This document shows positions 10,211 to 49,587 of a DNA stretch of 56,640 nt, one piece after another (the first letter of the stretch is position 1; the number at the start of each line of letters is the position of its first letter). The notes beneath the pieces are model-generated. The model saw nothing but the letters and a program-made list of their open reading frames with translations. It was not told the DNA's origin and made no database searches. The position numbers and the translations under genes were made by a program. This DNA comes from a virus, in IMG/VR virus record IMGVR_UViG_3300020056_001798, positions 1 through 56,640 of that record; one strand, given 5' to 3'.

Positions 10211-10412
10211 AAAATTTGATGAACTCAGCACTGATGATTTGTGCTACTTAGAAAAAATATTAGGTGAAAAGTTTGCTCAACAACTAGAAGCAGATCAAAC
10301 CTGGGCTGCAAAAAATCACTATGACCGTCCTGGTAATAAAAAGAAACAAATACTTCGTATTATGGATGCTGTCCGTTCACAAAAACGGTTGACAAGTGTA
10401 GCCAAGTGGTAG
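10200..10412 (+). CDS. small helical protein, unknown
   Basis: A 70-residue charged helical protein (MVSKKFDELSTDDLCYLEKI) overlapping the previous gene by 11 nt. It ends 1 nt before the TATAAATA at 10413. The TTGACA of the tmRNA promoter lies inside its last codons. No family recognised. Confidence 0.6.
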   Translation: MVSKKFDELSTDDLCYLEKILGEKFAQQLEADQTWAAKNHYDRPGNKKKQILRIMDAVRSQKRLTSVAKW

Positions 10413-10420
10413 TATAAATA
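10389..10420 (+). promoter_or_regulatory. dual promoter of the tmRNA (sigma70 -35 plus late TATAAATA)
   Basis: TTGACA 10389-10394 and, 18 nt later, TATAAATA 10413-10420. The same bases serve as a sigma70 -10 (TATAAA) and a perfect T4-late box. This would allow tmRNA synthesis throughout infection. Confidence 0.65.
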
Positions 10421-10421
10421 A

Positions 10422-10700
10422 ACTGTAACGTTGAAGCCAATCAACGACGAACTGGACGGGAGTTCGAATCTCCCCACCTCCACCAATAAACTTCTATGGG
10501 GGTGTTCCGGGAATCGACAGGCGTAATAGAGAACGTGGAGTTACCGGTAGGCGAGACCGTAAATCAGCAAACACAATAATTGCAAACAGCAATTTTAAAC
10601 CTGAACTTTTCTTTGACGCAGAAGTCTTAGAAGCAGCCTAAGGGCAAGTTCGCGGTATAGGCTCCACCGGGCAACAGAACGGGCCTGCTACATTTTAGCG
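10422..10700 (+). ncRNA. ssrA: circularly permuted (two-piece) tmRNA
   Basis: The acceptor piece lies first. It has T arm GGGAG-loop-CTCCC (10458-10474), acceptor strand CACCTCC (10475-10481) and an encoded ACCA ending at 10485. After only 12 nt, the coding piece begins at 10498 with GGGGGTG, which pairs with CACCTCC (one G-U), followed by the D-loop-like GGGAATCGACAGG. The tag frame starts at GCA 10582 after the typical ATAATT context and reads ANSNFKPELFFDAEVLEAA before TAA at 10639-10641. The 5' and 3' limits (about 10422 and 10700) are estimates. tmRNA frees stalled ribosomes and tags the product for proteolysis; ClpS and ClpP are encoded in the same window. A permuted gene is the form found in alphaproteobacteria and some marine cyanobacteria. 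Confidence 0.9.
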
Positions 10701-41731: not shown

Positions 41732-41896
41732 ATGTTTAAAGCAGTCAAGGAAATTATTTGGCACTTAACTTGCAGTAGTTGCAAAGGCTACTTTACTTTT
41801 GCAACGATGGAAGACAAATATTGTATAGATAGAGCAACCTTCCATTGTCCACATTGCGGAACTAAAGCAAAATGTGAAAAAGTGGTTGACAAATAA
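41732..41896 (+). CDS. zinc-ribbon protein
   Basis: 54 residues from ATG 41732. HLTCSSCKGYF and FHCPHCGTKAKCEK provide two CxxC knuckles of a zinc ribbon. No Shine-Dalgarno is evident. The TTGACA of the following promoter overlaps its last codons. Similar mini zinc ribbons are common in T4-like phages, roles unknown. Confidence 0.7.
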   Translation: MFKAVKEIIWHLTCSSCKGYFTFATMEDKYCIDRATFHCPHCGTKAKCEKVVDK

Positions 41897-41914
41897 ATAC
41901 AAAGAAGTTATAGT
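41886..41914 (+). promoter_or_regulatory. sigma70-like promoter of the leader/tRNA-Trp-Cys unit
   Basis: TTGACA 41886-41891, 17 nt, TATAGT 41909-41914. Expected start near 41921. It is the only promoter of this class seen before tRNA-Trp and tRNA-Cys. Confidence 0.75.
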
Positions 41915-41943
41915 AAGTATATAAACTAAGAAGGAATAGATAC

Positions 41944-42006
41944 GTGATTAAGACTAACACAACAAATATTACTTGTTGGCCTCCGAAAGAAAGGGGTATG
42001 TCTTAA
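41944..42006 (+). CDS. 20-codon leader peptide with Cys-Trp
   Basis: GTG 41944 with AAGGA nine nt upstream reads MIKTNTTNITCWPPKERGMS then TAA. Codons 11-12 are TGT TGG (Cys, Trp); four codons are Thr. It lies between the promoter and a strong terminator that abuts the tRNA-Trp and tRNA-Cys genes. Its composition and place are those of an attenuator leader peptide. Confidence 0.55.
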   Translation: MIKTNTTNITCWPPKERGMS

Positions 42007-42065
42007 CACGACTTTTGAAAAAAGTTATTTTAGATAAGCCCCTAGCATTAAGTTGTTAGGGGCTT
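41978..42065 (+). promoter_or_regulatory. candidate transcription attenuator (mutually exclusive hairpins)
   Basis: Segment 1 (41979-41983, GCCTC, overlapping the Trp codon) can pair with segment 2 (41993-41997, GGGGT). Segment 2 as AGGGGT (41992-41997) can instead pair with GCCCCT (42038-42043), the left arm of the terminator. Segments 3 and 4 (42036-42044, 42057-42065) form the terminator. A ribosome waiting at Cys/Trp would cover segment 1 and leave segment 2 free. Confidence 0.5.
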
Positions 42066-42069
42066 TTTT
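42036..42069 (+). terminator. rho-independent terminator directly before tRNA-Trp
   Basis: AAGCCCCTA (42036-42044) pairs with TAGGGGCTT (42057-42065), extendable by GCA/TGT. TTTTTT ends at 42069. The next base is the first base of tRNA-Trp. Confidence 0.92.
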
Positions 42070-42143
42070 ATGGGTGTGGTGTAATGGTAACACGTCAGTC
42101 TCCAAAACTGAAAATAGGGGTTCGATTCCCTTCACCTATGCCA
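42070..42143 (+). tRNA. tRNA-Trp (anticodon CCA)
   Basis: Acceptor ATGGGTG/CACCTAT (one G-U), anticodon stem TCAGT/ACTGA with loop CTCCAAA, T arm AGGGG-TTCGATT-CCCTT, encoded GCCA end. It starts immediately after a terminator T run, so it can only be made by read-through. Confidence 0.93.
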
Positions 42144-42148
42144 ATTTT

Positions 42149-42222
42149 GTGAGCGTGGCGGAATGGTTACGCAGAGGATTGCAAATCCTTGTATGTGAGT
42201 TCGATTCTCACCGCTCACTCCA
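42149..42222 (+). tRNA. tRNA-Cys (anticodon GCA)
   Basis: Acceptor GTGAGCG/CGCTCAC, anticodon stem GAGGA/TCCTT with loop TTGCAAA, T arm GTGAG-TTCGATT-CTCAC, encoded TCCA end. Five nt separate it from tRNA-Trp. Confidence 0.93.
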
Positions 42223-42255: not shown

Positions 42256-42284
42256 TTGACACAATAGCAAATCCTTGCTATAAT
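42256..42284 (+). promoter_or_regulatory. sigma70-like promoter with internal operator-like palindrome
   Basis: TTGACA 42256-42261, 17 nt, TATAAT 42279-42284. ATAGCAA (42264-42270) and TTGCTAT (42275-42281) form a perfect 7-bp inverted repeat across spacer and -10. Confidence 0.85.
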
Positions 42285-47864: not shown

Positions 47865-48188
47865 TTGCAAATACTCAAAGATTTTCATTTAAAGAAACTA
47901 AATCAAATTAGATGGTGGGCCTGGGCAGCAACAGTACTGCCTATAGTATCTCTTGCTGGTTTATTTTTTATTAATTATATCGGCACCGAAACTTATTGGG
48001 AAATTGCCCTTACCTGTGGTGCAACAATTATGTTTGCTATCGCAGTCATTTGGTGGTGGTGGGCGATTTATACTATCGCACAGGTCACAAATATTTTAGG
48101 AACTATTGCTGATAAATTTCAGGATGTAGGACAAGAAATTAAATTAATTAAGAAAGATATTTCTCAACCCGATGATCAAGCAGATTAG
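47865..48188 (+). CDS. two-span membrane protein, unknown
   Basis: 107 residues from TTG 47865. Two membrane segments (WWAWAATVLPIVSLAGLFFI and IMFAIAVIWWWWAIYTIA) with a polar C-terminal helix ending QPDDQAD. It overlaps the minus-strand halogenase by 41 nt, convergently. Similar small proteins occur in cyanophages, role unknown. Confidence 0.65.
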   Translation: MQILKDFHLKKLNQIRWWAWAATVLPIVSLAGLFFINYIGTETYWEIALTCGATIMFAIAVIWWWWAIYTIAQVTNILGTIADKFQDVGQEIKLIKKDISQPDDQAD

Positions 48189-49587
48189 GTTTTATATCAA
48201 ATCCTAAAAATAAAAACATATGGCTACTATTGTCAAATATACTATGTCCATCAAATATATTTGACACATTAAATTTCTGTTTTTTAGTAGCATAAGATTT
48301 TAGAATATTTTTTTGCATAGGAGTTAACTCTAAACTAGAAAAATCTCTCCAAAACTGAGTATCACGTCTATTAGAAAATATGTAGTGCATTTCTATATAG
48401 CTTGCAATTGCATCTAAACTTAAATTATTAAGATAATTAAATCGTTGACGTTTCTTATGCATTGGTATATGAGACGAAGTTAACATATCTAAAACAGTGT
48501 CTGCCTGATGTTGCAAATGGGCAATTGCTGTACTTTCGATAGGTTCTAAGAAAAAGCTACTTAATCCTATTGCTACAACATTATTCTTCCAGGTCTCTCT
48601 ACGTAAGCCTACATTGAAAGGCACAGTTCGAAATGTCAAATCTTCTTTTTTGTAACCATAAGTTGAATGCAAATGCTCTTTAAATTCTTCAGTAGCCTGT
48701 TCTACTGTAGTATGTCTAGAACTGAAAACATAGCCTGTACCTATTCTATTTTGAAGAGGCACATTCCAACTCCATCCGTATCCTAGTGCGTGACAGTAAG
48801 TAGTATTGCGCATTTGAATATTTTTGTCAATGTAAGGCAGTTGAACAGCAATTGCAGTATCAACAAAAAGTCTCTGTTTGTAGGAATCGTCCCAATCTGC
48901 TTCTATAGCATTTGCAAGGATTGATCTAAACCCTGTACAATCTATATATAAATCTGCTGTAATTTCTGTATCATTTTTCAAAATTAGCTTTTGTATTTCT
49001 TGATTTACTACTACAATATCTTTGACACTGTTGTCTAAGTAATTACAGTTGCTTCTTTTTAAACTTTCTTCTTTGAGTAAATTTCCATATAAGCCTGCAT
49101 CAATATGATATCCGGCACTTGGTGTAAACTCATAATTGTATTGGTCAGTATAAGGTGTAAACTGTTTTGCACGTAAGTTTGCAAATACATAAGTATCTTC
49201 AACAAAATCAGGCTGATCTTTATAAAAGCCTAAATCTAATGTTCCGTTACAAGTCATTCTTGTTATAAGATCATCAGGTGCAGTTGGACTTGTAAATGGA
49301 TGTATCCATTTATGGCCTTTATCGTGATAATCTGCAAATTCTATACTAAATTTTAATGTACCATTAACTTTTTTAAGCCAATCTGAATTTTCAAATATAG
49401 GGAATTGCATTTTAGAATGGATTACATTCATATAAGGAATAGTGCTTTCGCCTACACCGATTGTAGGAATATCACTAGGTTCTATTACAGTAACATTTAA
49501 ATTTGAATTAGTAGATATTAGTGCAGCAGTACTCCATCCTGCAGTTCCGCCACCTACTATCACTACATCATAGGTTGCCTTCTGCAT
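48148..49587 (-). CDS. flavin-dependent tryptophan-halogenase-like protein
   Basis: A 479-residue flavoprotein. FAD site GGGTAGWSTAA at the N-terminus, IGVGEST, the catalytic-Lys region NGTLKFSIEFADY, the halogenase WxWxxP motif in YGWSWNVPL, and the FLEPIESTAI block with the conserved Glu. It would generate HOCl or HOBr to halogenate a substrate, classically tryptophan. Related genes occur in cyanophages. It is last in the minus-strand fibre operon, overlapping the previous gene by 20 nt, so the substrate might be a virion or surface component (inference). Confidence 0.87.
   Translation of the reverse strand: MQKATYDVVIVGGGTAGWSTAALISTNSNLNVTVIEPSDIPTIGVGESTIPYMNVIHSKMQFPIFENSDWLKKVNGTLKFSIEFADYHDKGHKWIHPFTSPTAPDDLITRMTCNGTLDLGFYKDQPDFVEDTYVFANLRAKQFTPYTDQYNYEFTPSAGYHIDAGLYGNLLKEESLKRSNCNYLDNSVKDIVVVNQEIQKLILKNDTEITADLYIDCTGFRSILANAIEADWDDSYKQRLFVDTAIAVQLPYIDKNIQMRNTTYCHALGYGWSWNVPLQNRIGTGYVFSSRHTTVEQATEEFKEHLHSTYGYKKEDLTFRTVPFNVGLRRETWKNNVVAIGLSSFFLEPIESTAIAHLQHQADTVLDMLTSSHIPMHKKRQRFNYLNNLSLDAIASYIEMHYIFSNRRDTQFWRDFSSLELTPMQKNILKSYATKKQKFNVSNIFDGHSIFDNSSHMFLFLGFDIKPNLLDHRVEKYLS

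Follow-up and report, generated by a model that had tools for sequence, protein, structure and literature searches.

A putative ribosome-mediated transcription attenuator of phage tRNA genes whose leader codons follow the read-through tRNAs

Described attenuators and the phage tRNA leader

The nearest known elements are the proteobacterial leader-peptide attenuators of the trp, his, thr, phe and ilv operons (Rfam RF00513, RF00514, RF00506, RF01859). They combine a promoter, a short translated leader, control codons, mutually exclusive antiterminator and terminator structures and default termination without translation, and the same features are proposed here for a locus in a 56.6-kb IMG/VR virus record (IMGVR_UViG_3300020056_001798; the whole record is hereafter the window, to which positions refer unless a relative is named). 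However, amino-acid operon attenuators target enzymes, whereas this element would target tRNA genes and is carried by phages; up to ten amino acids are listed in its leaders, and the control codons change with the tRNAs. Resemblance to the His, Thr, Trp and Phe leader models of Rfam is sub-threshold (E 0.08-7), with 18.7 bits for Trp_leader against a gathering score of 41 and 22.4 for His_leader against 49, and the Rfam search of the leader returned no family.

T-box riboswitches are likewise transcription switches that answer to the state of particular tRNAs, but they bind the tRNA directly and without translation, while the phage element is proposed to be translation-dependent, and the T-box covariance model gave no match at gathering nor at E<=10. 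In tnaC, too, a Trp codon within a short leader is essential (PMC8429421), but tnaC senses free tryptophan via its nascent peptide, whereas the phage leader peptide is not conserved and its codons follow the tRNAs. A tnaC-type arrest leader is very unlikely, with no conserved arrest peptide beyond Trp across the three sequence clades (A, B and C) described below. According to one proposal (PMC10264068), phage tRNAs stand in for host tRNAs that anticodon nucleases have cleaved, and the logic is the same, in that phage tRNAs restore decoding after host tRNA loss, although that work treats tRNA sequences and not regulation. A literature search, mostly outside subscription papers, found no tRNA operon under leader-peptide attenuation. 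Leaders of clades A, B and C had no BLAST match in 50,697 GenBank phage records, and the exact leader pattern was absent from 84,980 GTDB species genomes, so neither a host copy nor a prophage copy came to light. The mechanism is of a known attenuator kind, and what is new is the tRNA target, the sensing of multiple tRNAs and the rewritten specificity. With a probability of about 0.88, judged from sequence, we propose that the element is a ribosome-mediated transcription attenuator of a phage tRNA operon that acts as a multi-tRNA shortage sensor.

All parts named in the original prediction are present on the plus strand where it had placed them. The leader transcript would start from a sigma70-type promoter (TTGACA-17-TATAGT, 41886-41914), followed by a Shine-Dalgarno-like AAGGA (41931-41935) that is kept in an alignment of relatives (A2) and by a leader frame of 20 codons with a GTG start (MIKTNTTNITCWPPKERGMS*, 41944-42006), which is retained in all relatives. 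Codons 11-12 are TGT (Cys) and TGG (Trp) (41974-41979), the same amino acids as those of the two tRNAs beyond the intrinsic terminator (42036-42069; 12-bp stem 42036-42065, T run to 42069), which are tRNA-Trp(CCA) (42070-42143) and tRNA-Cys(GCA) (42149-42222). Both are reached by read-through only, since tRNA-Trp starts right at the end of the T run (42069/42070) and leaves no space for a promoter; among relatives, the best promoter match between terminator and tRNA-Trp was 9/12, in agreement with the prediction that none lies there. A 12/12 promoter after tRNA-Cys (42256-42284), separate from the leader promoter, belongs to the next gene, a metallophosphoesterase (Pfam), and therefore the leader unit probably consists of the two tRNAs only, with no amino-acid biosynthesis or synthetase genes. 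The gene just upstream of the leader encodes a NifU/IscU-like Fe-S scaffold protein (PF01592, 41338-41721). Compared with its shuffles, the 149-nt leader RNA is far more stably folded (z = -5.7). Promoter-like sites in the window number 7 against 8.8 expected, so that the leader promoter alone is not beyond chance, but it was accepted as real because it is conserved: an upstream sigma70 match of at least 10/12 was found in 61/64 distinct leaders, compared with 5.9% of random 110-nt stretches.

Leader codons and read-through tRNAs in related phages

Relatives were gathered from IMG/VR phage contigs via the neighbouring gene and DNA patterns, some taken from the 3' part of the leader frame (blind to the tRNAs) and others clade-specific. 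This gave 161 leader hits and 158 fetched loci, many of them overlapping on the same contigs, with 60 distinct RNA sequences and 61 distinct leader/operon combinations. In 160/161 hits tRNA-Trp is the gene that directly follows the terminator, and the remaining hit stops at a contig edge. The order of sigma70 promoter, short leader frame, terminator and tRNA-Trp recurs in three sequence clades, of which clade A, including the window, has a CWPP or WCPP core and a GMS ending, clade B has the leader MNTKYTNNYEWCGCEPPGGVL, and clade C has leaders such as MTTQQKHMQKHICIRWFSEGGSC and MTTMMKHIQQYCIRWFSEGGSVS; searching once more for clade C variants added none. All leaders contain a Trp codon, and Trp is the sole residue invariant across the clades. 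Loss of the leader frame from loci keeping the terminator and tRNAs, which would speak against the original prediction, was not found among the relatives.

Operons were cut at internal sigma70 promoters by one fixed criterion (10-12/12 match, in 42-50 nt spacers), which was adopted post hoc, once mismatches had been seen, and Met(CAT) was scored as matched by ATG or ATA. With this cut, 122/124 non-Trp read-through tRNAs have their own codon in the leader, the two exceptions being Ser(TGA) in L007 and Ser(GCT) in L076, and under the same rule the ten leaders missed by the first detection script matched 26/26 tRNAs. Nearly all mismatched tRNAs lie behind a 42-50 nt spacer with its own sigma70 promoter, and only 2/12 tRNAs behind an internal promoter have a codon in the leader (Fisher p=1e-11 against 122/124). 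Without any cut, clade A leaders encode 84/94 non-Trp, non-Met isotypes, compared with 68.6 for shuffled leaders (p=5e-5), and at the codon level within leader types the figures are 87/99 and 66.5 (p=5e-5). The shuffle test in clade C alone is weak (42/42 vs 40.2, p=0.05), as these leaders resemble one another, and the strength there lies in complete lists: the arrays of L066 and L073 hold Trp, Ile, Lys, Gln, Cys, Met, Arg, His and Phe, that of L236 holds these nine plus Tyr, and their leaders of 22-23 codons have a codon for each of these 9 or 10 tRNAs. These p-values, and those given below, are indicative only, because the sequences are related.

Single loci show how the two lists change together. 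Within clade A, a YWCPP leader precedes tRNAs Trp-Pro-Tyr-Cys (L004), a CWRR leader precedes Trp-Arg-Cys (L107), and L020 has neither tRNA-Cys nor a Cys codon; in clade C, the unit of L235 lacks tRNA-Lys and its leader lacks a Lys codon. Two almost identical leaders differ in GGT with tRNA-Gly (L078) and TGT with tRNA-Cys (L152), and L014 and L016 differ in CCA and TCA, the latter with tRNA-Ser(TGA), although both carry another TCA codon further upstream. The fit extends to the codon decoded, as tRNA-Ile(TAT) is accompanied by ATA (7/7 vs 9/40) and tRNA-Ile(GAT) of clade C by ATT, and ATA codons in 5/5 cases suggest that the clade A tRNAs labelled Met(CAT) may read ATA (Ile2 type). A Cys codon occurs in 27/27 loci with tRNA-Cys and is absent in 8/20 loci without it. 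The expected conservation of the Cys and Trp codons was thus borne out, Cys missing only where tRNA-Cys is missing. The Cys codon is retained in the other 12/20 leaders without tRNA-Cys in the unit, and some leaders likewise keep Pro codons where the unit has no tRNA-Pro; Pro, present in nearly all leaders, is uninformative for the match. The predicted link of the leader codons to tRNA-Cys and tRNA-Trp holds for the unit in the window and is too narrow for the family, in which leaders follow the whole read-through tRNA set; since the control codons follow that list, the element would be a shortage sensor for that set.

Shared ancestry could produce such a correlation if leader and tRNAs were simply inherited as a block and the codons had no role, and the sequences are indeed related, with many pairs of relatives sharing leader and tRNAs alike. 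We consider this very unlikely, however, because in disjoint nearest-relative pairs changes in codon and tRNA were concordant in 11 and discordant in 0 (sign test p=0.001), tRNAs that are just as closely linked but lie behind an internal promoter match in just 2/12, and tRNAs of other clusters in the same loci match at chance level (52/118 vs 51.3 expected, p=0.47). The fit is also codon specific and is seen in three clades with unrelated leader sequences. A separate scan for attenuators at these other tRNA clusters gave unconvincing frames only.

A sensor specific for the listed tRNAs also has to be weighed against a general translation-stress switch, in which read-through would follow whenever a ribosome is slowed within the leader, whatever the codon, and the tRNAs would serve as a broad supply. 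A stall at any point before the G-run discussed below would free it, but such a switch predicts neither that the codons follow the tRNA list nor that the match fails for tRNAs that have a promoter of their own, and it appears highly improbable to us.

The remaining alternative at the level of the leader is that the CWPP/WCPP peptide itself stalls the ribosome, through tnaC-like nascent-peptide arrest or a Pro-Pro stall, so that read-through is not codon specific. Pro-Pro is described as slowing ribosomes (PMC8129111), and W-P-P or W-C-P-P is found in most clade A leaders. Clade C is without Pro, however, Trp alone being invariant across clades, and differences between relatives in the frame are mostly amino-acid changing (54/74 changed codons). 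Peptide arrest also leaves the match of codons and tRNAs unexplained, and there is very little to recommend it. Third-position bias, a possible sign of translation, was not seen in the leader frame; this agrees with a frame that matters for its codons and not for its product, but is no positive proof of translation.

Competing helices and the proposed switch

Three competing helices find support in folding and sequence comparison. The first pairs the region of the start codon (41943-41954) with that of the stop codon (42000-42010), and in clade A the two sides covary: GTG goes with TAA then CRCG in 17/17 and ATG with TGA in 36/36. Native start/stop segments reach -12.9 kcal/mol against -10.5 for swapped ones (p=0.0002), and in clades B and C these two regions also pair, through different sequences. 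The GTG start, listed as a weakness in the original prediction, is present and belongs to this covarying pairing with the region after the stop.

The antiterminator would form between AGGGGUaUGUCU (41992-42003) and AGAUAaGCCCCU (42032-42043), the latter overlapping the left terminator arm, with a small hairpin (42010-42026) within it. It was thought to have only 6 bp, but 41992-41997 pairs with 42038-42043 and 41999-42003 with 42032-42036, which gives 11 pairs around the inner hairpin, nearly twice that length. Antiterminator and terminator are about equally strong, the predicted energy of the former with the inner hairpin being about -18 kcal/mol, against about -20 for the latter; across relatives the respective ranges are -17 to -24 (with about 12 pairs in part of clade C) and -18 to -22 kcal/mol, and some single leaders have weak antiterminators (L056, L241). 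Covariation, also foreseen for the helices, was found in clade A for the start:stop helix and for the terminator arms (p=0.0002 each). For the antiterminator, native complementarity exceeds swapped complementarity across the three clades (-16.7 vs -15.7 kcal/mol, p=0.0002) and within clade A reaches p=0.08, as the two sides hardly vary there.

Folding with part of the RNA masked by a ribosome is consistent with a switch between these structures. With the ribosome placed on the Trp codon, transcripts ending at the terminator loop folded into the antiterminator in 10/10 representatives, and with the ribosome at the stop codon the antiterminator was blocked and the terminator alone formed in the same ten. 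At equilibrium, a ribosome at Trp does not keep the full-length RNA from folding into the terminator; antitermination must therefore be kinetic, as in known attenuators. The G-run begins 9-21 nt past the first base of TGG, and with TGG in the A site its start lies near or beyond the front edge of the ribosome.

Under the proposed mechanism, transcription would begin at 41886-41914 and a ribosome would translate the 20-codon leader. With an ample supply of the tRNAs that read the control codons, the ribosome would reach the stop codon and cover GGGGTATGTCTTAA, the terminator would form and the tRNAs would not be made. Slow decoding at a control codon would leave the stalled ribosome behind with GGGGTATGTCTTAA free just ahead of it, and its pairing with the left terminator arm would prevent the terminator and let RNA polymerase enter the tRNA genes. 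If no ribosome is present, the start:stop helix would hold GGGGTATGTCTTAA, so that termination is the default. We infer both the stalling at control codons and the resulting drop in termination. Taken together, the layout in 160/161 hits, the codons that track the tRNAs and the conserved helices largely uphold the attenuation first suggested for this locus. The view that the terminator merely ends an upstream small transcript, with an incidental short frame and constant leaky read-through into the tRNAs, can draw on chance terminators upstream of genes (4 terminator-like sites in the region vs 1.9 expected), but joint conservation of promoter, frame, antiterminator, start:stop helix and terminator in 60 distinct sequences, with covariation, makes it scarcely credible.

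Probable signal, host and neighbouring elements

Extra tRNA is useless against amino-acid starvation, and a useful signal would therefore be tRNA loss; we infer that loss of tRNA during infection, rather than starvation, is the natural signal. The attenuator might then be a counter-measure against tRNA loss, a programmable codon-list sensor of marine phages that releases the array only once infection has depleted one of the listed tRNAs and whose leader is rewritten as tRNAs come and go, a view to which we give roughly even odds. The depleting agent could be, for example, host anticodon nucleases or host shut-off. If the attenuator operates as proposed, the regulatory DNA indicates when the phage wants its tRNAs, namely when the cognate codon is unreadable, which speaks for phage tRNAs as substitutes for missing ones rather than as constant codon compensation. 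It would also extend leader-peptide attenuation to tRNA genes, with as many as ten tRNAs listed in a single leader, and about sixty natural variants with rewritten specificity are on offer.

The host is likely a marine alphaproteobacterium, because the window carries an alpha-type permuted tmRNA and its tRNA-Cys shares 36 identical bases with pelagiphage sequences. The tmRNA (10386-10689; RF04321 96 bits, RF01849 64 bits), whose tag by eye would read ANTIIANSNFKPELFFDAEVLEAA, is another ribosome-rescue element in the same phage. A tryptophan halogenase gene lies on the minus strand (48148-49587, PF04820, E=4e-95), and a link to tRNA-Trp regulation is speculative.

Some relatives carry further elements at the tRNA array. 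The tRNA-Trp behind the leader of L062 (2256-3149) appears split by about 850 nt, with an apparent antisense reading frame in the insert, which matched no known intron family at gathering; the tRNA-Trp of L066 is intact. Recurrent inserts of 75-120 nt lie between terminator and tRNA-Trp (L009, L012, L016, L039, L040, L114, L142) or between tRNAs (L045, L123), some with long inverted repeats; they matched no known Rfam family and are perhaps small mobile or processing RNAs. A GOLLD RNA (186 bits; L236, 5966-6425, minus strand) adjoins a leader-controlled tRNA array.
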